Shown here: piece by piece, positions 748-48,825 of the stretch
Layout: each line of letters begins with the position of its first letter
Numbering within the stretch: position 1 is the first letter of the stretch
Source: Rothia mucilaginosa
GTDB lineage: Bacteria > Actinomycetota > Actinomycetes > Actinomycetales > Micrococcaceae
DNA length: 64,000 bases
Reading direction: 5' to 3'
Assembly (NCBI RefSeq): GCF_001061665.1
Contig: NZ_JVSP01000013.1
Span: 1 to 64,000 of the forward strand
Program-made: the position numbers and the translations under genes
Notes under the pieces: generated by a model
Databases searched by the model: none
The model's input: only the letters and a program-made list of their open reading frames with translations
Told to the model about the DNA's origin: nothing

Positions 748-1257
748 ATGACTTCCAACCTTTTTACCCGCCGCGCAATGCTGAGCGGCGGTACCCTTCT
801 GGGTCTTGGTGCCCTGCTTGCGGCATGCGGCCATCAGGCAAATAACGAGGCGGCAGCCACCACCTCCGCAGCGCCGAGCGAAACCGCCTCGGCGTCTGCG
901 GCAGCATCTAACGCTACTTCTGCTTCCGCTACTCCGAGCCCGGTCATTACCGCGGCTATTCCGGCGGATCAAAGGCACCCGACGGCGAGTACCGCAAAGC
1001 TGATGCATATGGTATAGCTCAAAACGTCCCTCTTCCGAAGGCTAAGCCGCAACAGTACCCTTGAAACCTTTGCTGGTCTTCGTGAGATGATGACCGATTG
1101 GGTCAGAGCCCGTAACTACGGTATTCAGACCGGTGACATGCAGTATGTATGGCCCTATATGCTGGATACCTACGAGAAGGATATTAAGTTCCTCAAGGAT
1201 ATCGAAGGCCTTTATCAGCGCGGAGGCTGAGGTGGCGCGTTCCCCGGGCTGGGTCTG
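748..1257 (+). pseudogene. DUF6318-like lipoprotein, 5' fragment, frameshifted and interrupted
   Basis: Start ATG 748 follows a GAGGA ribosome site. The first 30 residues form a signal peptide with twin arginines (RRAMLSGG) and a lipobox ending LLAAC, so the ancestral product was an exported lipoprotein with an Ala/Ser/Thr-rich linker. The frame then breaks: around base 960 the coding signal moves by one frame (SGGSKAPDGEYRKADAYG), and near 1062 it returns (ETFAGLREMMTDWVRARNYG) and runs to a TGA at 1228-1230. The order of segments resembles DUF6318 lipoproteins from Micrococcaceae. From about 1258 the sequence turns A+T-rich and belongs to the inserted yeiH-like segment. A likely 3' remnant lies at 2371-2457. 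The family name is from memory and moderately sure. The frame breaks are read directly. Confidence 0.65.
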
Positions 1258-1296
1258 CATTCCTACTTTCTATTTTATTTTTCTAACAAATAAGAT

Positions 1297-1302
1297 TATA
1301 AT
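1297..1302 (+). promoter_or_regulatory. Candidate -10 of the inserted yeiH-like gene
   Basis: A perfect TATAAT in an A+T-rich leader, 28 bases before the start codon. A strong GGAGG ribosome site lies at 1320-1324. No convincing -35 is seen. The signals look Firmicutes-like and appear to have travelled with the gene. Confidence 0.5.
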
Positions 1303-1329
1303 AAGGAGTGTTTATTTTCGGAGGTTTTT

Positions 1330-2343
1330 ATGTCATTTCTATCAAAAAATTGGGCAGGATTGTCAGTCTGTCTGATCATTTCTATCATCTCTTGGGTTTT
1401 AGGAGGATTTCTGCCTGTTGTGGGAGCACCTGTTTTCGCCATTTTTATCGGAATGATTCTCCATCCCTTTCTCGCTTCCTATGCACAACTGGATGCCGGT
1501 TTGACTTATAGCTCTAAAAAACTGCTTCAGTATGCTGTTATTTTGCTTGGGTTTGGACTCAATATCTCACAAGTTTTCGCAGTTGGAAAATCTTCCCTTC
1601 CTGTTATCCTTTCAACTATTTCAATTGCTTTGATTATAGCTTTCTTTTTCCAACGCTTTTTTAAGCTTGATACAAAGCTAGCTACCTTGATTGGAGTTGG
1701 ATCTTCTATCTGTGGCGGTTCTGCCATTGCAGCGACTGCTCCTGTTATTCGCGCCAAGGAAAAAGAAGTAGCCCAAGCCATTTCTGTTATCTTTTTCTTC
1801 AATGTCTTGGCAGCTCTTATCTTTCCAACTCTAGGTTCTTGGCTCCATCTTTCCAACGAAGGTTTTGCTCTCTTTGCGGGTACTGCGGTCAACGATACTT
1901 CCTCTGTGACAGCTACTGCTAGTGCCTGGGATAGTCTTTACAATGCAAACACTCTTGAGCCTGCAACTATTGTCAAGCTGACACGTACTCTAGCTATTAT
2001 CCCTATCGTTCTCTTCCTCTCCTATTATTGGCAAAGCCGTCAACAAGGCAACAACCAAGGAGTGAAGCTTAAAAAAATCTTCCCCGTTTTCATTCTCTAC
2101 TTTATCCTAGCTTCTCTGATAACTACTCTTCTCACATCTTTCGGTGTCAGCAATAGCTTCTTTTCACCTCTCAAACAACTCTCTATATTCCTCATCATCA
2201 TGGCTATGAGTGCTATTGGTCTCAAAACCAACCTCATTGCTATGATCAAATCCAGTGGAAAATCCATTCTTCTTGGAGCCCTTTGCTGGATTGCTATCAT
2301 CCTGACTAGTCTTGGCATGCAATTATTCATCGGTATTTACTAA
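1330..2343 (+). CDS. YeiH/UPF0324 family putative sulfate exporter, horizontally acquired
   Basis: 337 residues, very hydrophobic, with about ten membrane spans, matching the usual size of the YeiH (UPF0324) family. Recognisable family segments are [39 protein letters not shown] and a C-terminal AIGLKTN stretch. YeiH proteins are annotated as putative sulfate exporters; the substrate is not well established. The start ATG 1330 has a GGAGG site six bases upstream. Codon use is strongly A/T-ending (TCT, CTT, ATT, AAA, GTT), unlike every other gene in the window, which points to a low-GC donor; the protein reads like streptococcal YeiH. It has its own TATAAT, ribosome site and a short terminator-like hairpin, and is complete, so it may be expressed. 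It lies inside a broken lipoprotein gene. Confidence 0.88.
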
Positions 2344-2350
2344 GAAAAAA

Positions 2351-2370
2351 AGGGAGCCTAAAGGCTACCT
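2351..2370 (+). terminator. Short terminator-like hairpin after the yeiH-like gene
   Basis: AGCC-TAAA-GGCT stem-loop with an A-tract before it, just after the stop codon. It was probably carried in with the insert, and its right edge is close to the point where native sequence resumes. Confidence 0.4.
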
Positions 2371-2457
2371 CAGAACGTAGGCAAATCAGATGGATTTTGG
2401 ACTGTCGTTGGCTCGCTTTCTCAAGAGCAGCTGAAGGAAAAAGGGCTACTGAAATAA
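2371..2457 (+). pseudogene. Probable 3' fragment of the interrupted DUF6318-like lipoprotein
   Basis: An open frame of 28 codons without a start runs to TAA 2455-2457 and reads QNVGKSDGFWTVVGSL and then SQEQLKEKGLLK. A Gly/Phe/Trp strand followed by an amphipathic, charged tail is what the end of a small secreted lipoprotein looks like. The hairpin repeat copy 2 begins 14 bases later, matching the arrangement after the first gene of the window. That it is the continuation of the fragment ending near 1257 is an inference. Confidence 0.45.
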
Positions 2458-2470
2458 CCCCATAACCATT

Positions 2471-2535
2471 GAGAAGCCACACGTGTTTCGAGAAGCCACC
2501 ATCGTTGTGGCTTTTCGAAACACATGTGGCTTCTC
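2471..2535. repeat. 65-bp hairpin repeat, copy 2
   Basis: Same length and orientation as the copy at 586-650. The outer arms are 2471-2486 and 2520-2535, with one internal difference (ACGTGT against ACATGT) that pairs as G-T in RNA. The right half is identical to copy 1. Confidence 0.85.
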
Positions 2536-2572
2536 GGCGCATAGGTATCGGCGCGTAGGTATCGGCGCATGG
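2536..2572. repeat. 14-nt tandem repeat, about 2.6 copies
   Basis: Units GGCGCATAGGTATC (2536-2549) and GGCGCGTAGGTATC (2550-2563), then a partial GGCGCATGG. It abuts hairpin copy 2 and ends ten bases before the -10 element of ybaK. Confidence 0.8.
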
Positions 2573-2581
2573 TGACTTCCG

Positions 2582-2587
2582 TAAAAT
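2582..2587 (+). promoter_or_regulatory. -10 element of a probable leaderless ybaK transcript
   Basis: TAAAAT followed by six bases and then the ATG. No Shine-Dalgarno sequence is present. Transcription would begin at or next to the A of the start codon. Confidence 0.55.
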
Positions 2588-2593
2588 GGTTGT

Positions 2594-3094
2594 ATGGCTA
2601 AGAAAAATAAAGGCAAGAAGAGCGGAGCAGCAACGGCCGCCGTTGCCCTCCTCGCCGAGACGAACACTCCCTTCCAGATGCGCGAATACGAGCACACCGA
2701 GGGCGTAACCTCCTTCGGCGAAGAGGCTGCGAAGAACCTCGGCGCATCCGAGGAACAGGTCTTCAAGACCCTGCTCATCGTGCACGAAAAGGAATTCGCA
2801 GTCGCAATCGTCCCCGTCTCCGGCAAGCTCAACGTGAAGGCCGCCGCCGCAGCCCTCGGCTGGAAGAACGCTTCCATGTGCGACCCGAAGGTCGCCGAAC
2901 GCCGCACCGGCTACGTGGTCGGCGGTATCTCCCCGCTGGGCCAGAAGACCCCCTCCCCCACCCTCCTGGACGAAAGCGCCCAGCTCTTCGATACCATCAT
3001 GGTGTCCGGAGGCAAGCGTGGACTGGACGTCGAGCTCGCCCCCGACGACCTGCTGAAGCTCACCAACGGAAAGTACGCCGATATCCGCGCCTAA
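2594..3094 (+). CDS. ybaK: Cys-tRNA(Pro) deacylase, YbaK/EbsC family
   Basis: 166 residues, the normal length for YbaK. These free-standing editing proteins hydrolyse Cys-tRNA(Pro) formed by prolyl-tRNA synthetase, acting in the cytoplasm. After a short Lys-rich N-terminus the YbaK fold is clear: EQVFKTLLIV with the conserved lysine, an AIVPVSGKLNVKAAA strand-helix, the glycine-rich YVVGGISPLGQK loop, and the C-terminal MVSGGKRGLDVELAPDDL. The next gene, msrB, is separated by a hairpin, so this is probably a single-gene unit. A TAAAAT box six bases before ATG and the lack of a ribosome site suggest a leaderless mRNA. Confidence 0.9.
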   Translation: MAKKNKGKKSGAATAAVALLAETNTPFQMREYEHTEGVTSFGEEAAKNLGASEEQVFKTLLIVHEKEFAVAIVPVSGKLNVKAAAAALGWKNASMCDPKVAERRTGYVVGGISPLGQKTPSPTLLDESAQLFDTIMVSGGKRGLDVELAPDDLLKLTNGKYADIRA

Positions 3095-3143
3095 CAGCCT
3101 CGTGCTGCCCCGCGACAGAATATTATCGGCACAGACTGCGCAC

Positions 3144-3180
3144 CGCGGCGGTTGAGGAAATATACTCCTCCACCGCCGCG
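3144..3180. terminator. Hairpin between ybaK and msrB
   Basis: Nine-base arms CGCGGCGGT (3144-3152) and ACCGCCGCG (3172-3180) with an inner GAGGA/TCCTC stem. It is most likely the ybaK terminator. A TATACT in its loop region could also serve as a -10 for msrB. Confidence 0.6.
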
Positions 3181-3190
3181 TTATGCATGT

Positions 3191-3230
3191 GTACAGATCA
3201 ACGATTTAATGTACAGATCAACGATTTAAA
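3191..3230 (+). repeat. 20-bp tandem duplication in the msrB leader
   Basis: Two head-to-tail copies, 3191-3210 and 3211-3230, differing only at the last base. The second copy runs into the AAAGGAG ribosome site of msrB. Confidence 0.9.
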
Positions 3231-3240
3231 GGAGAATCCC

Positions 3241-3675
3241 ATGGGTAACTCGTTGCCGGGTGTCGGCACCATCGCAAAGAATTGGCGTGAAGTCCTCCGC
3301 CCCGAAGAATACGCGGTGCTGCGCGAGGGCGGCACGGAGCGTCCCTTCACGGGCGAGTACTGGAACACGCACGCCGAAGGCATCTACTCCTGCCGAGCCT
3401 GCGGCACGGAGCTGTTCCGCTCGGACCAGAAGTTCGACTCGCACTGCGGCTGGCCGTCGTTCTTCGCTCCCCTGGCCGAGGACCGCGTGCGCTACCTGGA
3501 AGACACGACGTTCGGCATGCGCCGCGTCGAGGTGCGATGTGCCGCCTGCGACTCGCACCTGGGCCATGTATTCGAGGGTGAGGGCTACCCCACCCCCACC
3601 GACCTGCGCTACTGCATTAACTCGGTGTGCCTGACCCTCACCCCGGCCGAGAACGAAAAGGCCGAAGAGGAATAG
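3241..3675 (+). CDS. msrB: Peptide-methionine (R)-S-oxide reductase MsrB
   Basis: 144 residues. MsrB reduces the R epimer of methionine sulfoxide in proteins, using thioredoxin. Zinc-binding pairs C51-x2-C54 and C100-x2-C103 are present, as are GWPSF (70-74), HLGHVF (106-111) and the catalytic cysteine C125 in RYCINSV. The start ATG 3241 follows AAAGGAG at the normal distance. Longer in-frame readings extend into the hairpin and repeat region and are rejected. A second cysteine, C130, lies five residues after the catalytic one. The resolving cysteine was not otherwise identified. Confidence 0.95.
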   Translation: MGNSLPGVGTIAKNWREVLRPEEYAVLREGGTERPFTGEYWNTHAEGIYSCRACGTELFRSDQKFDSHCGWPSFFAPLAEDRVRYLEDTTFGMRRVEVRCAACDSHLGHVFEGEGYPTPTDLRYCINSVCLTLTPAENEKAEEE

Positions 3676-3827
3676 CATCCAGAAGCGGCCCCGGGGCCAC
3701 CCCGATTCCCCTAATTCGAGCCTCTCAGCCGGGGCGGGTAGAATGGCCTAGTGCCTTTGGGGGCCGGTGTGGCGTGCCCGGGGCGATCTACATGTACAAC
3801 ACCTGAGCGTCAGAAGAGGATGGTTCC

Positions 3828-5081
3828 ATGAGTAGCGCAGCTAAAGCGAACGGTTCGCTGACCCTTCAGGATATTGAGGTTCCCGAGGTTGTTCCGCTGA
3901 ACACCCCTTCGACGCCGATTCCCACGCTGATTAACACCGAGAGCGGTTTGCGCCGAGCCGCCGAGTCACTGGCGGCGGCCTCCGGCCCGGTGGCCGTTGA
4001 TACCGAGCGCGCGCAGGGTATCCGTTACGGTTCGCGCGCGTTCCTAGTGCAGCTCAAGCGCGAGGACAAGCTGTACCTGATCGACCCGGAGGCCTTCTCT
4101 GACCTGCGCATCATTAATGATGCGCTGGCCGACGCCGAGTGGGTGATTCACGCGGCGATTCAGGACTTCCCGAGCCTCGACATGCTGGGCATGCGCCCCA
4201 AGCGCCTATTTGACACCGAGCTGGGTGCTCGCCTGGCGGGCCTGAAACGCGTGAATCTGGGCGCGACGGTTGAGGAGCTTCTGGGCTACAGGCTGGAGAA
4301 GAAGCATTCGAAGGAGGACTGGTCGCACCGTCCCCTACCGGAGTCGTGGCTGAACTACGCGCTGCTGGACGTTGACGTGCTCATCGACCTGCGCGACGCC
4401 TTGGAGGAGCTACTCCGCAAGCAGGGCAAGCTGCAGTACGCTCAAGAGGAGTTTGCGTACCTGTGCGCATCACCGGTGAAGGACCCCACGGACCAGCCGG
4501 AGCGTTGGCGCAAGACGAAGGGCCGCACTGCCCTGCGGTCGGTCAAACAGCTGACGGCGCTGCGTAACCTGTGGGTTGAACGCGATTCGCTGGCCCGCAA
4601 GAAGGACATCGATTCGAAGCGGCTACTACCCGATTCCGCGTTGATTGAGGCGGCCCGCACCATGCCCCGCAACGTGCCGGCCGTGATGGCCATCCCCGGT
4701 TTTCAGACGCGCGGCCTGCGCCGTGAGGGTCCCCGCTGGGTGCGCGCTATCGCATCCGCAGCCCGCGGCGAGAACGCGGTGCCGTACACCCTGCCCTCGA
4801 CCGCCCCTCCCCCGTTGAAGGCGTGGGAGTCGAAGCGCCCCGAGAATCTTGCGCTGTTTACCGAGGTTCGCCAGGTGATTGATGACCTCTCCGAGCGCCT
4901 GACGATTCCGGCGCAGAACCTGATTACGACCGATTACGTGCGCCGCCTCTGCTGGGAGCCTCCGGCCCGTCACGACGAGCAGTCCCTGCGGGATGCGCTG
5001 GCCGCCTACGGCGCACGCCCCTGGCAGACCGGTCTGGTCGCCCCCGCGATCGCGCCGGTATTCGCGAAGTATTTGGGTTAG
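3828..5081 (+). CDS. Ribonuclease D-like 3'-5' exonuclease with HRDC domain
   Basis: 417 residues. The DEDDy exonuclease domain spans about residues 30-210: motif I D58-T-E60, motif II D113 in IQDFPSL, motif III Y177-x3-D181 in NYALLDVDVL. A helical HRDC domain follows at about 230-310, then a less conserved C-terminal helical region with a second HRDC-like part. RNase D enzymes trim the 3' ends of tRNA and other small RNAs. The start ATG 3828 is preceded by AGAGGAT. A TAGAAT box at 3741-3746 is a likely -10, leaving an 80-base leader. In actinobacteria this gene often lies near dxs, as here. It is probably co-transcribed with the Rieske gene 24 bases downstream. Confidence 0.88.
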   Translation: MSSAAKANGSLTLQDIEVPEVVPLNTPSTPIPTLINTESGLRRAAESLAAASGPVAVDTERAQGIRYGSRAFLVQLKREDKLYLIDPEAFSDLRIINDALADAEWVIHAAIQDFPSLDMLGMRPKRLFDTELGARLAGLKRVNLGATVEELLGYRLEKKHSKEDWSHRPLPESWLNYALLDVDVLIDLRDALEELLRKQGKLQYAQEEFAYLCASPVKDPTDQPERWRKTKGRTALRSVKQLTALRNLWVERDSLARKKDIDSKRLLPDSALIEAARTMPRNVPAVMAIPGFQTRGLRREGPRWVRAIASAARGENAVPYTLPSTAPPPLKAWESKRPENLALFTEVRQVIDDLSERLTIPAQNLITTDYVRRLCWEPPARHDEQSLRDALAAYGARPWQTGLVAPAIAPVFAKYLG

Positions 5082-5105
5082 CTTTCGCTCAACGAAAGAG
5101 GATTT

Positions 5106-5639
5106 ATGTCTACTTCTCAGAATTGTTCCTGCTGTCGGCAGGCGAGCGTTCAGGAGCAGTCCGCTTCGGTGAAGCCCACGGCGACTGCCGAAACCGACCT
5201 TGCGTCGGATGCCGAGAGGGCCTCGTCCCGTCTGTTTTCGCGCCGTGCGACCCTGGTGACCGGGGCACTGGCCTCCACCGCGGCGCTGGCTTCCTGTGCC
5301 GAGGGCGGCGGCACGACGGTGACCGCGCCCGACGGAACCGTGGATATGGCAGCCGCGTCTTCGGTGGGCGTGGGTAAGGCCGCTAAGCTGACCCGCGGCA
5401 CCACGACCGTGATTGTGGCTCAGCCGTCCGAGGGTCAGTACAAGGCGTACAGCCCCGTGTGCACTCACCAGGGGTGCCAGTTGCAGGTGCAGGATTCGAA
5501 CCGCATCGTGTGCCCCTGCCATGGTTCGGAGTTCGCGACCGCCGACGGTTCGGTGCTGCACGGCCCGGCGGAGACCCCGCTGAAGACCTACTCGGTGCAG
5601 GTGAAAGACGGCCGTATCTTTGTGGGAAACAACAGCTAG
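5106..5639 (+). CDS. Rieske [2Fe-2S] lipoprotein with Tat signal
   Basis: 177 residues. A twin-arginine motif SRRATLV (about 45-51) is followed by a hydrophobic stretch and a lipobox LASC, predicting Tat export of the folded cluster protein and lipid attachment at C64. The Rieske domain covers the C-terminal half: C119-T-H121-QGC and C136-P-C138-H139 supply the two cysteines and two histidines of the cluster, with two more cysteines (C124, C138) that could form the usual disulfide. It is not part of a bc complex operon here. Small Rieske proteins of this kind are annotated as putative electron carriers and the partner is unknown. An unusual Cys-rich N-terminus (CSCC) precedes the signal. Ribosome site AGAGGA. 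Confidence 0.9.
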   Translation: MSTSQNCSCCRQASVQEQSASVKPTATAETDLASDAERASSRLFSRRATLVTGALASTAALASCAEGGGTTVTAPDGTVDMAAASSVGVGKAAKLTRGTTTVIVAQPSEGQYKAYSPVCTHQGCQLQVQDSNRIVCPCHGSEFATADGSVLHGPAETPLKTYSVQVKDGRIFVGNNS

Positions 5640-5700
5640 GGCCGGCCTCTGCCTCGTTTTAGTTTCGTGTGCCGTTGAGGTGCACTGTTGAAAACACAGA

Positions 5701-5733
5701 AAACCCAGCTACCCGGTCGGGGTAGCTGGGTTT
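5701..5733. terminator. Bidirectional terminator between the Rieske gene and dxs
   Basis: Perfect 14-bp arms (5701-5714 and 5720-5733) with a five-base loop, A-tract on the left and T-tract on the right. It serves two convergent genes. Confidence 0.9.
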
Positions 5734-5762
5734 TCTGCGTCTCTAACTTTTACGCGTTACGG

Positions 5763-7835
5763 CTACGCGGTGTGGCGGGGCTTCTGGCCCTCCTCACGGG
5801 CGAAGGGCACCTTGTCGCCGGCCAGCTGGGCACGCACATCCGCGGCGATTCGCTCGGGGGTCAGGCCAACCTCCTCCAGAATCTGCTCGCGCGATGCGTG
5901 CGGGATGAACTCGGCGGGCAGACCCAGCTCGCTCAGGGCCGTATCGACGCCGGCCTCACGCATCTCTTGTCGGATGCGCGCACCCACGCCGCCGGAACGC
6001 ACGCCGTCCTCGATGGTCACCACGATGCGGTGGTCACGGGCCAGCTCCACGACGGAGGAGGGAACGGGAATGATCCAGCGCGGGTCAATCACGGTGGACT
6101 CAATGTCCTCTGCGGCCAGAATCTCGGAAACCTCCAGGGCCACGCGGGCCATGGCGCCCACGGCCACGAAGAGCACGTCGCGCTGGCCGGTCTCGGGATG
6201 CGGTTCGCCGGTGCGGGCCAGAACGTCTACACCGTCGGCGCGGCGCTCAATAGCTGGGATGTCCTCGCCCACGGAGCCTTTGGGGTAGCGAATCACGGTG
6301 GGTGCGTCGTTGATGGCTACGGCTTCGCGCAGCTCCTCGCGCAGGGTTGCGGCGTCACGCGGGGCGGCCAGGTGCAGCCCGGGGATGAACTGCAGCATCG
6401 CCAAGTCCCACATGCCGTGGTGGCTTGCGCCGTCGGGGCCGGTGATGCCGGAGCGGTCCAGGACCACGGTCACGCCGGCCTTGTGCAGTGCCACATCCAT
6501 GAGCAGCTGGTCGAAACCGCGGTTCAGGAAGGTTGCGTAGAGCGCGACGACCGGATGCATGCCACCGTAGGCGAGGCCCGCGCTCATGGCGATGGCGTGC
6601 TGCTCGGCGATGCCCACGTCAATCACGCGGTCGGGGTGGCGCTTCTGGAACTCGCGCAGACCCACGGGAATGAGCATAGCGCCGGTGATGCCGACGACGT
6701 TCTCCTGCTCATCCGCAATATCTGCAATCTCACGGCCAAAGACGCTGGTCCAGGACTCGGCGGTGCTCTTGGAGACGGCATTACCGGTCAGCGGGTCAAT
6801 CGGGCCGACCGCGTGGAACTGGTCGTCCTTGTTCGCGCGGGCGGGTGCATAACTGTGGCCCTTCTCGGTGATGGCGTGCACGATGACCGGGCCCCCGTAG
6901 TTCTTCGCGGCGGTCAGGGCGTTCTCCACAGCCTGCTGATCGTGGCCGTCGATGGGGCCCACGTACTTCATGCCGAGTTCCTCGAAGATACCCTTGGGCA
7001 CCACCACGTCCTTGATGCCGGCCTTCATGCCGTGCAGGCCGCGGTAAATCATCTGGCCCAGGGCACCACCCCGCTGCAGACCCACGCGCACCGCGTCGAG
7101 GGCGCGGTCGTAGCGGTGGTCCAGGCGAACGCGGTCCACCTGCTGCTGCACGCCGTGCTTGAGCTCGGAAAGCTGGTTGGCGAAACCGCCGATGGTGGGC
7201 GCGTAGGAGCGGCCGTTATCGTTCACGATGATTACGACCTTGCGGCTACGGTCGGCGGCGATGTTGTTCACGGCCTCCCAGGCCATGCCGCCGGTGAGCG
7301 CGCCGTCGCCGATGAGCACGACGGTGTAGCGGTCGTCCTCACCGTTAATACGGTTGGCGCGCGAAATGCCGTCGGCCCAGGAGATAGAGCTGGAGGCGTG
7401 CGAGGAGGCAATAATGTCGTGCTTGGACTCGTTGCGGTCGGGGTAGCCCGAGAGGCCGCCCTTCTGACGCAGAGTCTTAAACGCATGACGGCCGGTCACG
7501 AGCTTGTGCACGTAGGACTGGTGGCCGGTGTCAAAGAGGATGTTGTCCTTGGGGGAATCGAAAATGCGGTGGATGCCAAGGGTCAGCTCCACAACGCCCA
7601 GGTTCGGGCCCAGGTGGCCGCCGGTCGCCGAAACGTTCGTCACGATGAACTGGCGAATCTCGTTGGAAAGCTCCTCCAGCTGCTCGTAGCTCAGGTTGCG
7701 CAGGTCGGAGGGGTCCTTGATGCCGGGCAGCAGGCGGGCCGTGTGGCCGTCGCCGAGGCTGTAATCTACGGTGGGTGCTCCGGGGGTGGCGGCCTTCGGG
7801 TTGTTCTCCTGCGGCGACGCATTTTCAGCAGACAT
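5763..7835 (-). CDS. dxs: 1-deoxy-D-xylulose-5-phosphate synthase
   Basis: 690 residues. DXS condenses pyruvate and glyceraldehyde 3-phosphate with thiamine diphosphate, the first step of the MEP isoprenoid pathway. Seen in order: the GHQSYVHKL segment with the catalytic histidine, the SSHASSSISWADG motif, the TPP/Mg2+ site GDGALTGGMAWEA with a downstream NDN, the transketolase pyrimidine-domain GIAEQHA, and the C-terminal domain with ITIED-like VTIEDGV. The start ATG at 7835 has a GAGGAG site ten bases upstream. N-terminal Pro/Ala-rich residues before the conserved LLPGIKDP are common in actinobacteria. It ends against a strong bidirectional terminator. Confidence 0.97.
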   Translation of the reverse strand: MSAENASPQENNPKAATPGAPTVDYSLGDGHTARLLPGIKDPSDLRNLSYEQLEELSNEIRQFIVTNVSATGGHLGPNLGVVELTLGIHRIFDSPKDNILFDTGHQSYVHKLVTGRHAFKTLRQKGGLSGYPDRNESKHDIIASSHASSSISWADGISRANRINGEDDRYTVVLIGDGALTGGMAWEAVNNIAADRSRKVVIIVNDNGRSYAPTIGGFANQLSELKHGVQQQVDRVRLDHRYDRALDAVRVGLQRGGALGQMIYRGLHGMKAGIKDVVVPKGIFEELGMKYVGPIDGHDQQAVENALTAAKNYGGPVIVHAITEKGHSYAPARANKDDQFHAVGPIDPLTGNAVSKSTAESWTSVFGREIADIADEQENVVGITGAMLIPVGLREFQKRHPDRVIDVGIAEQHAIAMSAGLAYGGMHPVVALYATFLNRGFDQLLMDVALHKAGVTVVLDRSGITGPDGASHHGMWDLAMLQFIPGLHLAAPRDAATLREELREAVAINDAPTVIRYPKGSVGEDIPAIERRADGVDVLARTGEPHPETGQRDVLFVAVGAMARVALEVSEILAAEDIESTVIDPRWIIPVPSSVVELARDHRIVVTIEDGVRSGGVGARIRQEMREAGVDTALSELGLPAEFIPHASREQILEEVGLTPERIAADVRAQLAGDKVPFAREEGQKPRHTA

Positions 7836-7894
7836 ACACCCACACTCCTCAAGGGTTCAGGGCACGGCTCATTCCGTGCGTTGGTTCTCCAATG

Positions 7895-7900
7895 ATTTTA
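7895..7900 (-). promoter_or_regulatory. Candidate -10 of dxs
   Basis: TAAAAT on the minus strand, 60 bases upstream of the dxs start codon. Confidence 0.4.
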
Positions 7901-8055
7901 CCTTTTAAGGGGCTAAAAATCAGATTCGCGTCACCGTCAGGTGAGACGAGCTCTCCTCTCCTCCGACGGCACCCCGGGCAGGTCTGCCGCCAATCGAACG
8001 CCGGTCCGCGCCCCGCCCTCCTCTGTCGAAGGACGAGCCGCGGCCAATCCGCCGC

Positions 8056-27500: not shown

Positions 27501-28562
27501 CAGCACGAGAATGGCGGTGTCCAGGCCCAGGGTGCCGTTGACCAGGCGCACACCAATCAGCACGGCAATCAGCGCCACGGAGATGGTGGTAATCAGCTCG
27601 AGGGCCAGCGAAGACATAAAGGCGCTGCGCAGGGTCTGCATGGTGCGCTCGCGGTAGCGCTGACCCAGAGAGTTCATGGCGCGGGTCTGCGCACGTTCAC
27701 GGCCCAGACCGATGATGACGGGCAGGCCGCGCACGAGCTCCAGGATGTGGTCTGAGAGGCGGTGCAGCTCGGCCTGCGCCTCCGCGGTTTCGGTGCGGGT
27801 GTTCTTGCCGATCAGCACCATGAACACGGGAATGAGTGGCAGGGTGCAGAGCAACACGAGGGCGCTCATCATGTCCAGGGAGGCGACCACAATCCACAGC
27901 AGGACCGGCACCACCGCGGTGGAAACAAACGCGGTCAGGGTCTTGGTGTAGTAGTCGTCCAGGGCGTTCAGGCCGCGCGAAAGCAACACCGCGGTCGCGC
28001 CGGTACCCTCGGGGGTGTCCGCGCCACCGGTGGCGAGCACGCGGCGCAACAGGCTACGGCGAATCTGAGACTTCGCTCCGGAGGCGGCACGCTGCGCGCT
28101 CACCGCCAGCAGGTAGTCCGCGCCCGAACGCACCGCGAGAGCCAGGACCGCCACGATGAGCAGGCCGGGGGTGATGGCGTCGCCGTCACCGAAGATGCCG
28201 CCGAGTCCGAGCAGCCAGCCGCCGTGCGCCTCCAGGTGTGCCTGGGCGGAGCCGGCGAACTCAACGTAGGCGCGGTACACGTCCGGCGCGCTCGTCTCCT
28301 TGAGGCGCGCGTGTTCGGCGGCGACCGCGGCAAACCCCGCGTGGGCTGCGCGGGCAATGATGACCGCGAGCGCCGCGCTGAAAAGCACGGTGGCCAGGGT
28401 GTGCACGGCGGTGATGATGCCGAAGGTGCTCAGATTTTTGCGGGCGTTGGGTCCCAGCGGCGGACGGCGGTCAGCGCGGTTATTGCGCTTTCCTTCGGTC
28501 GCCTCTGGTGCCTCAGTGTTCTGATGTTTGTCAGCGTGACGCGGTGTGTGCGTTCGACTCAC
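24531..28562 (-). CDS. cydDC: Fused CydD-CydC thiol reductant ABC exporter
   Basis: 1343 residues, two complete ABC half-transporters in one chain. CydDC exports glutathione/cysteine-type reductants or handles heme and is needed to assemble cytochrome bd. The first half has six membrane spans (about 45-375) and an ATPase with Walker A GPSGCGKST (near 450) but a variant signature LSAGQARRL. The second half has the CydC-type GLGRACARYAERL entry, six spans, a charged insertion of about 100 residues before its ATPase, Walker [10 protein letters not shown] (near 1168) and a standard LSGGQRQRL plus DEPTAHLD. The start is GTG 28562. Many bacteria have two genes and fusions occur in actinobacteria. 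The cydAB genes lie 5 kb upstream on the same strand. Confidence 0.92.
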   Translation of the reverse strand: MSRTHTPRHADKHQNTEAPEATEGKRNNRADRRPPLGPNARKNLSTFGIITAVHTLATVLFSAALAVIIARAAHAGFAAVAAEHARLKETSAPDVYRAYVEFAGSAQAHLEAHGGWLLGLGGIFGDGDAITPGLLIVAVLALAVRSGADYLLAVSAQRAASGAKSQIRRSLLRRVLATGGADTPEGTGATAVLLSRGLNALDDYYTKTLTAFVSTAVVPVLLWIVVASLDMMSALVLLCTLPLIPVFMVLIGKNTRTETAEAQAELHRLSDHILELVRGLPVIIGLGRERAQTRAMNSLGQRYRERTMQTLRSAFMSSLALELITTISVALIAVLIGVRLVNGTLGLDTAILVLLLAPECYQPLRDVGAAFHQSEDGVAALRSAQKIIDAPLPEETVEDDSANPAAIEVRNLDVNYPDRPEVLTDLSLSLPRRVAQAAEPGSERGTVIGIMGPSGCGKSTLLNVFSGAVREGLVPTGSQEPMRVTGSVTGLGTTLMIPQSPVFTAPTVRAEMALYALSADDSERERAAALVTGVLERGEFAVSPADNDLMMRPLAQLGLESVNVLEPGALSAGQARRLAVARTLARAEAIYRAGGEQTVLTVLVDEPTAHLDAYSAYLVTRALHRLAELGATVLIVTHEGELAAHCDHLVRAELGASGYTWSTSLNATRVPVPAEAPAHLLELKSEHEAESRALVEATPAADENPQEEKPAGLFATLRTLKELTGIGARAFSGPVLMAATTSLMAAALTALSGWLIVRAGEGPAMMYLMVAIVGVRFFGLGRACARYAERLMTHSKVLAAANILRLRAWVGAWQSVSSVRALLRGDALLERLVGGIDELRDGIPRVIIPPAAHLLVMIAALVTTACILPQALIPVLAAVLVSTFVAPWAVLRADARAEALARQSTARMLRLGTGMLSAAEDLRANGVANTAERANNELDAQNLSALQKGSTAQGLGRTLVALSWFGAALASAVIAYPLAVNGTVGAPESAIVVLLCTGMLESSLGHIEAVRSWPEFARLLASIAPSVRDVSLEGVVATSTLKRSVPTEAEVDTHVLPRRAERLRARAEAEMEELLEADRQRARRFARPDSAADSKADSQAESPRPPKPGEPKIVGCGTPQQLGVKVTGATPALAMQDGSARWPGMDHPVFAHLNLTAREGSWTAVTGPSGSGKSTVLATLLGFLPLESGRIEAAGEVLDPEELRGYAAWCPQAAHIFESTLEGNLLLARDRSDRPSEEELIEVLRRVGLGEWFDALPKGLRTPVGAGGSFLSGGQRQRLAVARALLVNSPVLLLDEPTAHLDAESARALMADLDAATRASSVATVLVSHRPEDVAYCDEVVRL

Positions 28563-28632
28563 GTGTTGTCCTTAGTCTTCTGCTGTTTTTACCTCCCATC
28601 AGTTTAAGGGGTGGGCTATCCAATACCTATTT

Positions 28633-28663
28633 GACCAGTCAAGTTTCGGATAATTGGCTGGTC
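28633..28663 (-). terminator. Weak hairpin between the MacB-like gene and cydDC
   Basis: Imperfect ten-base arms around GACCAG (28633-28638) and CTGGTC (28658-28663), without a clear U-tract. It may end the exporter operon or sit in the cydDC leader. Confidence 0.3.
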
Positions 28664-28680
28664 CTCACCCAGCGCTAGTT

Positions 28681-30891
28681 CTATCCGCGCATCGCGTCGG
28701 CGGGGCTCTTGCGGGACGCCACCCACGCCGGGTACGCCGAAGACACCAGACCGGTAAGGGCACCAACGCCCACGCCGAGCACCACGAATCCCGGGGAGAG
28801 GACCGCCTGCCAGCCTTGCACGAGCGAAAGAATGATGGTCGCAATCATGCCGGAGCAGGCGCCGATGGAGCCGCCGAGCACGCCGAGCATGACGCCCTCC
28901 ATGAGGAAGATGCGGGCAATCAGCCATTTACTCGATCCGATGGCGCGGCGCAGCGCGATTTCGGCAGTGCGCGATTGCACGGACAGGTACATGGCGGTTG
29001 CCGCCGAGAGGGAGGCGAGCACCAGCAGAATACCGGAGAGCACGCCCACGTACAGGCCCAGATCCGAGGCGATGGATGCGCGCAGGCTCTGCAGGTCGGA
29101 GGGGGTTTCCACGTTGATCTGGCTGGGTTCAGCGGGCTTGAGGGTCAGCGGAATTGCCTTGGCGACCGCTTTGCCGTAGCCCCGTTCGGTTTCGGTAATG
29201 TAGGTCACCTGGCCGCGTCCGGTGCGCTGAAGTGTGCCCGGCGAGACAATGACCGTGTTCCTGAATTCGTAGCCGCTATTGCCGGGGTCGAAGAGGCCGA
29301 TGACCGGCATCAGCTGACCGTCCACCCAGATGCTCACACCGGGTGCTACCTGCGGCAGCCCGCCGAGCTTAATGCCGTAGTCGACGGCGGGTAGCTCGCC
29401 GGGGCGGGGCTCGGTTGTGGCGTTATCTGCCGCCTTATCTTCGGGGAGAATGCCGAGGGCTCGGGCAGCGGAGACCGACACAATAGCGCCGGAGAGCTGC
29501 TCGGCGCGTTCACGGTCGGCAACATTCTCCTGGGTGAGGGTCGAGTTCATCTGTTCGAGCGCACGCAGGGTTTCGGGGTTCATGCGGGCACCGATTTGCT
29601 CGAGCCTGGTCTTCGAGGTGGAGCTGAGGCCAATCGCCGTTTTGGGTTCATCCTCGTAGGGGCTGAATCGGGTGATTCGCACGTCGGCGGGCGCCACGCT
29701 GCTGACGAATCCGGTGTTCTTCACGTAGTCCAGCGCGCTAATGCGGTCGGCAACATTCTGCGCGGATTCACCCTGCCGGTAGGTTCCGAGCATGTTTTGG
29801 TCATTGTCCCTGTCGCTGATGTAGAGCGTGGATTGTTCGGATCCGAGCAGGCGCTGGTTCACCTGGTAGCTGGCGGATTCGCTCATGCCGGAGGCGCTGA
29901 TGAGTCCGCCCACGCCCAGTGCGAAGGACAGGCCCAGCAGCAGGGTGCGTAGCGGTCGTGAGGTGAGCGCCGAGATCGCCTCGATGCTGTCGTCGGTGAG
30001 GAAGCTTCCGCGGCGATGCGTAGCGGGCTTCTCCCCCGGTGCGAGGCTGGTGGGGGCATCCGCCGGGCTATCCTGCACGACCGGAACCACCTCGGCGACC
30101 GGCACCGTAGCCAAGTCGGCGCGGCTCTGCTCGTGCAGCCGCCCATCCTCAATGCGAATCACGCGGCGGGCGGCAGCGGCAACCTCCGGGTCGTGGGTAA
30201 TCACCAGCACGGTACAGCCGGTCGCGTTAATGCGCTGAAGAATCTCAATGACCTTGGCGCTATTGTGGCTGTCCAGGTTACCGGTGGGCTCGTCGGCAAG
30301 AATCAGCGGCGGGCGCGTGGCGAGAGCACGAGCAATGGCGCAGCGCTGCTTCTCGCCGCCGGAGAGGTAGCGGGTGCGGATGCTGGCGCGGTCGCTCAAC
30401 CCCAGAAATTCTAGGGTTTCTTCGGTGCGTTGCAGGCGCTCGCCGTAGGGTACGCCCTGCACACGCAGGCCCATGGAGGCGTTGGTCGTACTGGTTTCGT
30501 CCAGCAGCATGTTTGAGGATTGGAAGATGAAGCCGAGGTGGTCTCGGCGCATTTCGTCGCGTTCTCTGTCGCTGAGTCCTTCCGTGTTTTTGCCGAAGAG
30601 GCTGTAGGTTCCGCTGGTGGGAGTGTCGAGCAGGCCAATGGCGTTGAGCAGGGTGGATTTACCGGAGCCCGACGGACCAATAATGGCGAGGAATTCGCCA
30701 CGTTCGACCACCAGGTCGAGGTGGTCGAGGACTGCTCGTTCGCTCCCCTCGAAAACACGGGTAATGCCGTGCATTTCGATAGCGGGCGCGGTACCGAGCC
30801 CGGCGGCAGGTGTAGCGGCGGACGCTACGTTGGGCGCAACTGTAGGCGCACGTCCTGGGCTTGCGTCTGGGGTTCTCTTACGGCGGCTCAT
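28681..30891 (-). CDS. MacB-like ABC exporter: ATPase fused to FtsX-type permease
   Basis: 736 residues. The ATPase lies at 38-260: Walker [10 protein letters not shown] (72-80), LSGGE (176-180), DEPTGNLD (200-207). The permease half has one span near 310-330, a large extracytoplasmic domain (about 335-590), and three C-terminal spans with the FtsX signature ([20 protein letters not shown]). This is MacB order: ATPase first, permease after. MacB-type pumps are mechanotransmitters that move peptides, lipoproteins or drugs. The start overlaps the stop of the adaptor gene by four bases (ATGA), so the two are coupled and form one machine. The substrate is not predictable. Confidence 0.9.
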
Positions 30892-32015
30892 GAGACAAGC
30901 ACCTTCTGTCCCGTGCTGAGGTTCGCGTTGATTGCGGCGTATCCGCCGGCGGTGCGTAGAACCTCAACGTTGACTCGTTCGGTGGCGGGCGCATCCTTGC
31001 TGGTCGAGGTGGAGCTTCCGCCCTTTTCAACGAGCACGTAGGTGCCCTGGGAGTCCTGGCGTACCGCGGTAGTCGGCACGGCGAGGGTGGTTGAGGTGTT
31101 GCCCTTACTGGTGATGGAGGCGCTCTGCCCCGGAGTGAGCTTGCTCGGGTCGTCGGCGCTGAATCGCACGCTCTTTGCCGCACCCTTGGAGGGGTCGTTC
31201 TGCAGCTCACCAATGCTGGTGATGGTTCCCTCGACGCTGCCGGTGGAGGTGCGCAGGCTGATGCGGTCGCCGACCTTGAGCTTGTTGGCGACGGCGAGTT
31301 CAACGCTGGATTCCACGTAGGGTTCGCTGGTTTCTACACTTGCGATGGGGTTGCCGTCGCTGATGAGCTGGCCGACCGCCGCAACTGCGGTGACGGTGTG
31401 GCTTCCGCCGGGCAGAATCGCGTAGTTGCTGCGGGCAATGCTGGTGACCCCTTCGCTGGGCACGCCGGTCAGGTGCGCGCGGTGCAGGCGCGTGACGGCG
31501 TCGAGGGTGTCTTCGGTGACGGTGCCGCTCTGAGCGGTGGCGTACCCGGCGGAGTTCAGTGCCTTCTGGAAGGCGAGCACGTCGTCGCCGTTATCGCCCA
31601 GGTTGAGGTCGCGGTACAGCGGCAGCGGCCCCTCCAGCACGAAGACGGGGTCGGCGCCAATGATGCCGATGAAGTCACCGGCCTTGAGCACGTTACCGGG
31701 CTTCTGGTTCTGGTAGACGAGCACCGGTTCACCGTTAGTGCGCGCGCTAATCGGGGCGGTCTCTCCAGCCTTGGTGGTTCCGGCAATGGCGAGACCCTCG
31801 CTGACGGTGCGTTCTTCAACCTTCGCCCAGACCGGGATCACGGTTTTCGCCTGCACGGTCGGGTCGGGTCCGGTGGCTGCGTAGCGGGTGCCCAGGTAGA
31901 AGGACAGCATGAGCGAGCCAATGGCGAGGATTGCGAGTAGCAGGAGCACGCGGGGTCGGGCGATGCGTTCGCTGAAGCGGTGCCCGCTGTTTTGGTTTTT
32001 CGTGTGAGTGGTCAT
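30888..32015 (-). CDS. Membrane-fusion (periplasmic adaptor-like) protein of the MacB-like exporter
   Basis: 375 residues. One membrane span (about 22-42) anchors an extracellular part. Residues 60-130 form a lipoyl/barrel-like region (TKAGETAPISARTNG, GNVLKAGDFIGIIG), 131-180 resemble a peptidoglycan-binding helical unit (LNLGDNGDDVLAFQKALNS), and the C-terminal half has adaptor beta domains (SSVELAVANKLKVGDRISL, KLTPGQSASITSK). In Gram-positive bacteria such adaptors pair with MacB-like ABC pumps and may dock on the cell wall. It is coupled to the next gene by an ATGA overlap. Ribosome site AGAAAGA. Confidence 0.82.
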   Translation of the reverse strand: MTTHTKNQNSGHRFSERIARPRVLLLLAILAIGSLMLSFYLGTRYAATGPDPTVQAKTVIPVWAKVEERTVSEGLAIAGTTKAGETAPISARTNGEPVLVYQNQKPGNVLKAGDFIGIIGADPVFVLEGPLPLYRDLNLGDNGDDVLAFQKALNSAGYATAQSGTVTEDTLDAVTRLHRAHLTGVPSEGVTSIARSNYAILPGGSHTVTAVAAVGQLISDGNPIASVETSEPYVESSVELAVANKLKVGDRISLRTSTGSVEGTITSIGELQNDPSKGAAKSVRFSADDPSKLTPGQSASITSKGNTSTTLAVPTTAVRQDSQGTYVLVEKGGSSTSTSKDAPATERVNVEVLRTAGGYAAINANLSTGQKVLVS

Positions 32016-47397: not shown

Positions 47398-48825
47398 TTA
47401 CTTTCCGGTCTGGCAAAGGAATACCTTCACGATACCATTATGAGAGTACGTTGCTCCGCTGAATGCCTCGCTGGAAGTGACGTTATTGGAGTTAGAAATC
47501 TCCCCCTCCATCACCTGCGGTGCCAGGTAGGAACCACCCGCACCACCAGAGCCTGCCAACTGCACATAGCTGATGCTCTGGCGAATGCCCTTCGGATTGT
47601 TATTCCACTTCTGAGCAATCGTGATAGATGACTGCGAGAGCGCAGCTCCCGAGCCACCGCCACCGTAACCGCCGCCGCCACCACCGGAGACGATAATCTG
47701 CGCACCGTTAAAGAAGGGCGCTACTCCGTAGTAGCCGATTTCTTCTCGGGTTCCATCGGGGAATTCAAGAACCTCGACGTCATCCTGCCGAAACTCTGCT
47801 TTATTATTATCCAGCTGGTAGCTCACAGACATTACTCCGTCGCCACCTTTGCCATTCAGGCCGTTAGTGCCGGGATTGCCTGCTGCCGAGGAGCTATAAA
47901 GCACCTGATTATTCTGACTATCAAAGCTAAAGATGCTGTTGGGAGTACCGGTCATCACGGTCGGCTTAGCGCCGCCAGCACCACCAATGCCTCCGCCGCC
48001 ACCTTTACCGCCTTCAACAGTCAGTTCAAGGCTCAAATCCTGAGCATAGTATTCGTGGCCTTCGGTGGCGTCACCACCACGAGCTCCACTAGCAACACCA
48101 GCAGCGCTATATACGGGCGCGTGGGTCGGGTGCTCCGGACCGGTCATGCGGACATCCACAATGCCGGGGAAATGGCGATGATTAGGTTCTGCGGTGTATG
48201 GTTTTCCGACAATTGATACGCCACCGCCACCACCGGCAACGGCAATGACTTCACCATCAATCAGTAGTGCCGATGAGCCACCGCCCGAGCATCCGTAGAC
48301 TTCTTCCATAGGCAAAGGATTGGGTCCGTAAGACCATTGGTGAGCCCAGACCCAGCGCTCATATACTTTATCCATAACATCGTTAGGGATTCTCACCTCA
48401 GGAGTCGAGCCTCCGTCGCCGAACCCGTATCCGCCCTCTACCGGAGCGGTTCGGTATCCGTCACCGACTTTGTAGAACTCAGGAGCAAAACTACCACCGC
48501 CGCCAGCAATAATTTTGACGGTCTGATTGGGTTTCACTTCAACGATTCCGCTGACCTTGGCACCGGATCCTCCATCCAGGCCCTTCTCGTATCTTCCGCC
48601 TGCGCCACCGGTCAGTTCAAAACGTAGCTTATGGGTGCCTGCTGGAATAGTAAATTCTTGTTCAACGCGTTCATAATTGCTCATACCCCGTGCGGAGGCA
48701 TATGCGTTCTCTGCAAAAGTACAGTCCACAGAAGAAGCGAAGGCCGGCACTACTGAAGAAGCCGCAATCACAGGGGTCGCCCAGGCGACACCCTTCACGA
48801 CCTTACGGCGAGAAATATGAGACAT
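47398..48825 (-). CDS. Tat-exported glycine-rich surface protein
   Basis: 475 residues. The N-terminus SRRKVVKGVAWATPVIAASS carries a twin-arginine motif, a hydrophobic core and an AFA-S cleavage site, so it should be exported folded and released or held at the surface (no lipobox, no LPxTG and no C-terminal span). The mature part has many glycine clusters (AGGGG, AGGGGGVS, GGKGGGGGIGGAGG, SGGGGGGYGGGGSG, AGSGGAGGSYLAP) between beta-strands, resembling the polyglycine domains of ALK/LTK-type glycine-rich folds. Cysteines are few. The function is unknown; adhesion or binding is a guess. The start ATG 48825 follows AAGGAC; the GTG just before it is less well placed. Codon use is less GC-biased than in neighbours. 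Confidence 0.8.
   Translation of the reverse strand: MSHISRRKVVKGVAWATPVIAASSVVPAFASSVDCTFAENAYASARGMSNYERVEQEFTIPAGTHKLRFELTGGAGGRYEKGLDGGSGAKVSGIVEVKPNQTVKIIAGGGGSFAPEFYKVGDGYRTAPVEGGYGFGDGGSTPEVRIPNDVMDKVYERWVWAHQWSYGPNPLPMEEVYGCSGGGSSALLIDGEVIAVAGGGGGVSIVGKPYTAEPNHRHFPGIVDVRMTGPEHPTHAPVYSAAGVASGARGGDATEGHEYYAQDLSLELTVEGGKGGGGGIGGAGGAKPTVMTGTPNSIFSFDSQNNQVLYSSSAAGNPGTNGLNGKGGDGVMSVSYQLDNNKAEFRQDDVEVLEFPDGTREEIGYYGVAPFFNGAQIIVSGGGGGGYGGGGSGAALSQSSITIAQKWNNNPKGIRQSISYVQLAGSGGAGGSYLAPQVMEGEISNSNNVTSSEAFSGATYSHNGIVKVFLCQTGK

Follow-up and report, generated by a model that had tools for sequence, protein, structure and literature searches.

Near the left end of the window, a 64,000-nucleotide (nt) stretch of Rothia mucilaginosa DNA (NCBI RefSeq assembly GCF_001061665.1, contig NZ_JVSP01000013.1, positions 1 to 64,000 of the forward strand), a gene of the yeiH family occupies a block of A+T-rich DNA that separates two fragments of a DUF6318-type lipoprotein gene. 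The features of this locus are given below in window coordinates, G000 being the genome of the window and G013 and G014 two further genomes of the genus; identifiers beginning with L refer to compared loci, and ORF stands for open reading frame.

584 to 650, no strand assigned: left copy of a 67-nt palindromic repeat, from repeat comparison
748 to 1230, + strand: 5' fragment of the DUF6318-type lipoprotein gene, several frames broken, with a TGA at 1228 to 1230; 87% DNA match to a G014 paralog
1231 to 1258, + strand: filler of about 28 nt between the native gene and the foreign DNA, resembling G013 C1:119587-119617
1259 to 2380, + strand: foreign segment of streptococcal or mobile-element origin; the BLAST match spans 1259 to 2385 in L012, L013 and others
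1274 to 1279, + strand: -35 hexamer TTTATT (TTTACT in L013, L025 and similar Streptococcus copies), assigned, as all -35 hexamers here, by eye
1297 to 1302, + strand: -10 box TATAAT, read from the sequence
1320 to 1324, + strand: ribosome binding site GGAGG, read from the sequence and present in most aligned copies
1330 to 2343, + strand: yeiH ORF of 337 amino acids, a putative sulfite/sulfate exporter, from the ORF and family profile matches
1560 to 1710, + strand: mosaic patch, with 17 differences between window and G014 in 150 nt, versus 18 in the other 966 compared
2352 to 2369, + strand: remnant hairpin at the 3' end of yeiH with no T run after it, from alignment, terminator scan and fold score
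2387 to 2457, + strand: 3' part of the interrupted DUF6318 gene, which at the DNA level matches the last stretch of an intact paralog in G014 (L136:3010-3080) at 91.5%
2469 to 2535, no strand assigned: right copy of the 67-nt palindromic repeat, 85% identical to the left copy, from repeat comparison

The block between the two fragments differs sharply in composition from its surroundings, since its GC content is 40.5% (1259-2380), against 55.9% on the left side (1-1230) and 64.0% on the right side (2458-8000), and the GC content at third codon positions is 0.38 in the yeiH ORF versus 0.82 and 0.85 in two native genes nearby. It holds yeiH as its single complete ORF, open over 337 codons, whose product matches PF03601 with 303.3 bits (cut-off 24.5; E 1.9e-90). 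This match, which places residues 10-315 on profile positions 2-303 of 304 and thus runs over the full length, is what the protein has in common with the YeiH/UPF0324 family, from which it departs by scoring 142.5 against TIGR00698, below the curated cut-off of 232.6, and by the loss of the subfamily residue Lys286. The foreign segment is present as a single copy in the genome of the window. When the DXS protein of that genome was compared with a plasmid collection, nine of its ten best matches lay in Actinomycetota. A Pfam scan of five ORFs in the region matched only yeiH and a downstream tRNA-editing gene to families, with no transposase or integrase seen among them. Two points of the first-pass annotation, namely an A+T-rich block with one complete yeiH gene and the lack of visible insertion machinery, therefore stand. 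A search for a solved structure of a YeiH relative gave no match at E 0.001, and the AlphaFold model of the window protein (mean pLDDT 39) was set aside together with any structure-based reasoning; a published YeiH model can be superimposed on that of the antiporter NapA, although its helices are connected differently, according to passages of PMC4602095.

The relatives of this DNA were sought with one genome per species, and the best 80 of 82 relatives yielded 78 loci in named genomes: 75 in Streptococcus and one each in Megasphaera micronuciformis, Oribacterium sinus and Veillonella sp. The closest sampled record is that of Megasphaera, with 96.7% DNA identity over 1259-2385 (1,132 aligned columns), and a nucleotide identity of this level over such a length to a named record excludes a chance match. 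Thus, the streptococcal-type source proposed in the first-pass annotation is borne out. Neither of the two patterns that it had named as contrary to a foreign origin was found, because the segment occurs in 2 of 35 genomes of the genus, not in all related species with the same flanks, and the best matches are not actinobacterial. A scan of the phylum found YeiH at E 1e-60 or better in 22 of 396 genomes, including that of the window, and the best-scoring of the other 395 is only 60% identical (the highest identity, 63%, belongs to a partial match), so a native actinobacterial YeiH was rejected. Carriage by a phage was also rejected, as no DNA match was found in phages and 14 pattern matches were accompanied by no relatives in viral contigs. 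The same applies to carriage by a plasmid, since 3 of 72,556 plasmid records matched, with 27-45% of the query aligned at 66-71% identity.

A tree built from 28 of the 78 loci and the window and G014 copies pairs these two copies as sisters (support 99/96) and joins them with Megasphaera (100/99), in a part of the tree made up of Streptococcus copies. The sequences downstream of yeiH add a second line of evidence. Behind most chromosomal copies lies either a compact terminator that includes a T run or other downstream sequence, whereas in element-type loci the hairpin is disrupted and a second terminator hairpin comes after it. The tails of the window and G014 copies are of the element type, unlike the terminator of chromosomal Streptococcus infantis type. 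On these grounds, the preferred reading of the source is a small mobile element, present in several oral Bacillota, that carries yeiH as cargo, and not a plain streptococcal chromosome. This retains part of the earlier proposal of a streptococcal donor, in that the DNA is of streptococcal type, and replaces the other part, since a mobile element takes the place of the plain chromosome and the closest copy is that of Megasphaera. Several points weigh against this assignment: element and chromosomal yeiH copies are intermixed in the tree (L025, L021, L081 and others), so that a chromosomal donor keeps some standing; tail typing and tree are not in full agreement; and the direct donor may be an unsampled genome. 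A search for further close YeiH carriers (E 1e-140 or better) in the families of the other recipients returned 1 of 17, 1 of 397 and 1 of 28 genomes, each of them the genome already known.

On the donor side, yeiH lies beside one chromosomal gene set in 65 of the 78 loci, where its neighbour is read from sequence as a putative aminotransferase, and other Streptococcus neighbours are read as genes for a CoA-binding protein and rarA. The remaining 13 loci have yeiH elsewhere, with int in 6 (one a fragment), rep in 5 and xre in 6 of them. A tRNA scan of 12 of these 13 loci with ARAGORN placed a tRNA-Lys at the left side in 6 and a tRNA-Thr 86 nt past the right end of the element in Megasphaera, and 4 loci had no tRNA. 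In Streptococcus cristatus S22 (L014:263-335), the element sits at a tRNA-Thr, not a tRNA-Lys, which points to a relaxed tRNA target. The most complete picture is offered by Streptococcus xiaochunlingii (L013), in which int, rep, xre and yeiH lie between direct repeats at 1317-1420 and 6432-6535 (79% alike), the left one beginning within the 3' end of a tRNA-Lys. Attachment repeats at a tRNA 3' end are thus seen at donor-side loci, and the L013 integrase matches PF00589 (E 1.4e-19), as a site-specific tyrosine integrase does. Just outside this element, at L013:6600-7193, a gene encodes GAD-like and Tdi1 immunity-type domains, the latter of the type VI secretion system (T6SS).

In Megasphaera micronuciformis F0359, a truncated element (L012:4417-6694) starts at the left repeat and ends at most 10 nt from the position of the right repeat. 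It retains just the last 103 residues of the integrase and splits a hairpin that resembles the tRNA target and looks like a terminator, a configuration that likely reflects integration at a secondary site. In Oribacterium, the right end alone fits the element, and neither end fits in Veillonella. Against the description of these loci as one element, the repeat finder listed direct repeats for neither the Megasphaera nor the Veillonella locus, and the Rep_trans-like protein reaches PF02486 with 27.7 bits (E 2.5e-6), below the cut-off of 29.6, and was given no name by an NCBIfam search. Because of this sub-threshold match, the donor element is called here IME-like, and not an integrative and mobilizable element (IME). 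Passages of PMC7563491 report 42 YeiH-domain transporters as cargo of Streptococcus salivarius elements and 55 elements in tRNA-Lys, two counts that are not tied to each other in those passages, and passages of PMC5357655 describe PF02486 relaxases and one integrase family whose targets are several tRNA genes, tRNA-Lys among them. With the streptococcal IMEs of these two sources, as far as those passages describe them, the donor-side loci share the tRNA-Lys target, the tyrosine integrase, the Rep_trans-like protein and the YeiH cargo; they differ in the sub-threshold Rep_trans match, in being known here from sequence alone, and in that the window holds the cargo alone. The Streptococcus satellite phage Javan276 resembles the element in its integrase-region DNA, with 37% of the query aligned at 68.8% identity; however, it comprises 12.2 kb with 18 annotated genes, whereas the yeiH unit of L013 measures about 5.1 kb between its repeats and includes a Rep_trans-like gene.

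The explanation that appears reasonably probable for the locus combines element DNA patched in by end joining, later recombination within the genus and a decaying yeiH. DNA of a tRNA-targeting element carrying yeiH would have entered the cell, by uptake or conjugation, and would have been patched into a DUF6318 gene of the chromosome by illegitimate end joining, without use of an integrase. The left end is joined through the filler of about 28 nt, similar to intergenic DNA of a related genome, and the right end, as preserved in G014, through a possible microhomology of 3-4 nt, where about 42 nt of the native gene are missing relative to a paralog. This chimera would later have passed between two species by homologous recombination in the native flanks, with yeiH persisting as a weakly expressed, decaying passenger.

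The alternative with most to be said for it concerns the fate of the gene: YeiH might export sulfite or another sulfur anion and aid the recipient among sulfite-releasing neighbours. According to the passages used of PMC12880088, deletion of yeiH makes Salmonella about 20 times more sensitive to sulfite, a role in transport is suggested, and the gene is activated by its divergent neighbour YeiE. The likeness to Salmonella YeiH is the family name that they have in common, the two proteins being compared by name and not by alignment, and it provides the best functional guess; the settings differ, with YeiE beside yeiH in Salmonella and lipoprotein fragments on both sides in the window. In the preferred explanation too, YeiH itself most likely acts as a membrane sulfite exporter, resistance being known from the Salmonella deletion and export presumed. 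A functional gain is also favoured by YeiH-domain transporters as recurrent cargo of S. salivarius elements (in the passages seen of PMC7563491) and by the occurrence of the chimera in two species, between which it has probably moved. In another context, PMC11343591 reports that HLA-B*27 presents a YeiH peptide to T cell receptors in inflammation of the joints and eyes.

The control region and the coding sequence tell a different story from such a gain. By inspection, the -35 hexamer of the window copy appears weakened, and the -10/-35 pair of yeiH was not among the predictions of a promoter scan of the window. A terminator scan found no working terminator after yeiH on the + strand, the fold z-score at the 3' end of the gene is -0.40, and the second terminator hairpin of donor type is severed by the right junction of the window. 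The first-pass annotation had described a compact promoter-gene-terminator cassette; its TATAAT and GGAGG are present, but the unit is not a tidy one, since its terminator is severed and its -35 hexamer is weakened. Between the window and Megasphaera yeiH, the ratio of nonsynonymous (N) to synonymous (S) substitution rates, dN/dS, is 0.76 (14 N, 6 S), and the share of the 20 coding differences that change an amino acid, 14, is close to the neutral share (binomial p 0.61). Megasphaera and S. xiaochunlingii, for comparison, differ at a dN/dS of 0.053 (7 N, 39 S), and the nonsynonymous shares of 14/20 and 7/46 are distinct (Fisher p 2.5e-5). Moreover, residue 286 is Ile in the window and Lys in all 24 Bacillota copies and in 5 of 5 relatives at the 60% level, although it is not conserved in 7 relatives of 23-29% identity. 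The G014 copy, finally, is frameshifted by one extra A in a homopolymer.

Other observations, several of which agree with a functional gain, weigh against decay. The frame of the window copy is still open over all its codons, with -10 box and ribosome binding site retained, and the G014 frame break could be a sequencing error. The dN/dS of the window copy is 0.12-0.18 to Streptococcus and 0.23 to Veillonella, and it is 0.123 to G014 over the 246 codons before the frame break (18 S, 7 N). Of the 24 codons that differ between window and G014, 16 lie inside the mosaic patch (12 S, 4 N), with 5 S and 3 N outside it, and after the frame break the ratio is 0.95 on 4 differences (1 S, 3 N). All these counts are small and come from one genome per species. 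Taken as a whole, the sequence makes it likely, if not strongly so, that yeiH in this lineage is a weakly expressed, decaying passenger, and a functional gain is rather unlikely. The new anion export trait suggested by the first-pass annotation is accordingly doubtful, given the near-neutral ratio with Megasphaera, the loss of Lys286 and the G014 frameshift.

The junctions bear on the manner of entry. The native sequence on the left (761-1229) is 87% identical to a G014 paralog whose frame continues past that point, and the 5' fragment of the window has additional frame disruptions of its own. DUF6318 (PF19843) is matched by each of the five intact paralogs that were scanned, of which four are from G013 and one is from G014, and a Pfam scan gave no DUF6318 match for the 5' fragment of the window itself. 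From 1231 to 1258, the DNA is neither the expected native gene sequence nor streptococcal, streptococcal homology beginning at 1259. The filler region (1217-1257) matches G013 with 88% identity over 41 nt (E 1.6e-7), in a stretch that holds no listed ORF of at least 90 amino acids and is read as intergenic. A pattern search for the filler with at most 3 mismatches had matches in 3 of 35 genomes, including both insert-bearing genomes from which the pattern had been derived, and the reversed-pattern control gave no match. The small length of the filler and its identity of no more than 88% with G013 count against this reading of the left joint. At the right junction of G014, the second terminator hairpin passes into the native gene inside a T run, with a possible microhomology of 3-4 nt (by eye) and 42 nt of the native gene missing in comparison with the intact paralog. 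The right end of the window is short of 162 nt that G014 retains; thus, it is secondary, and the last bases of its foreign segment are ambiguous. The earlier boundaries are modified as a result. The 5' lipoprotein fragment is real, but native homology ends at about 1229-1230 and not at about 1257, and the 3' fragment is present at 2387-2457. Insertion by illegitimate recombination, as first proposed, fits this patchwork junction.

By a different route, the whole element may have been integrated nearby by its own integrase and later deleted down to yeiH. Elements pared to little more than yeiH do exist in Oribacterium (L015), Veillonella (L037) and Megasphaera (L012), and that of Megasphaera occupies a non-tRNA site. 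However, the window segment shows none of the integrase, relaxase and terminal attachment sites of an integrative element: by inspection, neither end resembles an attachment site and no attachment-site repeat is seen at either end, donor int-rep-xre DNA matches the genome of the window at 1259-1319 and nowhere else, and the Rep-like protein had no match in 35 genomes of the genus in a search run without a positive control. Integration followed by deletion is therefore improbable, and patching by end joining is preferred.

Within the genus, the close yeiH copy is confined to G000 and G014, and 7 further genomes carry a distant YeiH of 23-29% identity. The two close copies share the same left junction at the same site, which would agree with an old insertion inherited vertically in the genus and lost from G013. 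However, the median identity of G000 and G014 is 87.3% over 500-nt bins with data, whereas the bins covering 1001-2500 reach 96.7, 95.8 and 98.6%, and the 5' remnant with the filler (1066-1258) is identical at 188 of 193 positions. G013, of another species, is nearer to G014 (median identity 95.15%) than G000 is, and has an array of intact lipoprotein genes and no insert at the site. Since the block is 96-99% identical to G014 in a neighbourhood of about 87%, while G013 lacks the insert, the chimera has probably passed from one species of the genus to another through homologous recombination, and vertical descent is very improbable. The 67-nt palindromic repeats on both sides of the unit might have helped this exchange. 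In G014, the 5' lipoprotein fragment is an open frame of 193 amino acids ending at the junction, so it need not be fully dead. An assembly chimera or contamination, which the sharp change in composition and the abundance of the donor group in mouth samples could suggest, is scarcely credible, because the single-contig G014 has the same left junction with substitutions of its own and the insert lies at a single place in the genome of the window.

The mosaic patch complicates the later history. It concentrates 17 of the 35 differences between window and G014 (binomial p 4e-9 against the rest), and in an alignment of 72 of the 78 loci the window follows Megasphaera there (0 and 3 differences), while G014 (L136) is nearest to S. 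xiaochunlingii and S. cristatus (3 and 4 differences). This suggests a second import or exchange, and the need for a second recombination event is a cost to the proposed history. Other bins at 93-98% identity (e.g., 28501-31999 and 60001) are alike to G013 and G014. In a separate observation, bin 48001-48500 is 93.4% identical to G014 versus 78.5% to G013, possibly another exchange between lineages. Many more copies of the 67-nt repeat were found in G000, G013, G014 and G027, and none was listed in the other 31 genomes of the right-flank search. DUF6318-type paralogs also lie close to three contig starts (G000:C16:1015, L102; G000:C4:987, L104; G000:C13:748, L090), where the assembly may be interrupted by the repeat arrays.

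This case belongs to a known phenomenon, the movement of mobile-element cargo across phyla, and YeiH cargo on streptococcal elements has been published, as passages of PMC7563491 show; among the literature matches listed, no description of this yeiH transfer was found. New to this case are its connection with a travelling element, the patchwork nature of the junction, the probable second step, in which it spread in the genus, and the signs of decay. Besides the published cargo of S. salivarius, yeiH is now also seen as an element-borne gene in Megasphaera and Oribacterium, with a related copy present in Veillonella. In a broader and speculative picture, which we put forward as unlikely to hold in full, yeiH would be a travelling cargo of oral biofilms, passing from mitis-group streptococci onto the element and by site-specific integration into Negativicutes and Clostridia, with DNA also reaching Actinomycetota, where patchwork end joining would fix it and recombination through repeat-flanked lipoprotein arrays would pass it on between species, with sulfite tolerance as the result in at least some cases. 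The locus is a clear case in which one cargo gene has passed from Bacillota into an actinobacterium, and the donor-type element can be seen in the sequence along with the junction and the subsequent spread in the genus. It keeps apart two steps that are often merged, the entry of foreign DNA without its own integration system and its later sharing by homologous recombination, and it serves as a warning that an open foreign transporter frame need not equal a gained trait.

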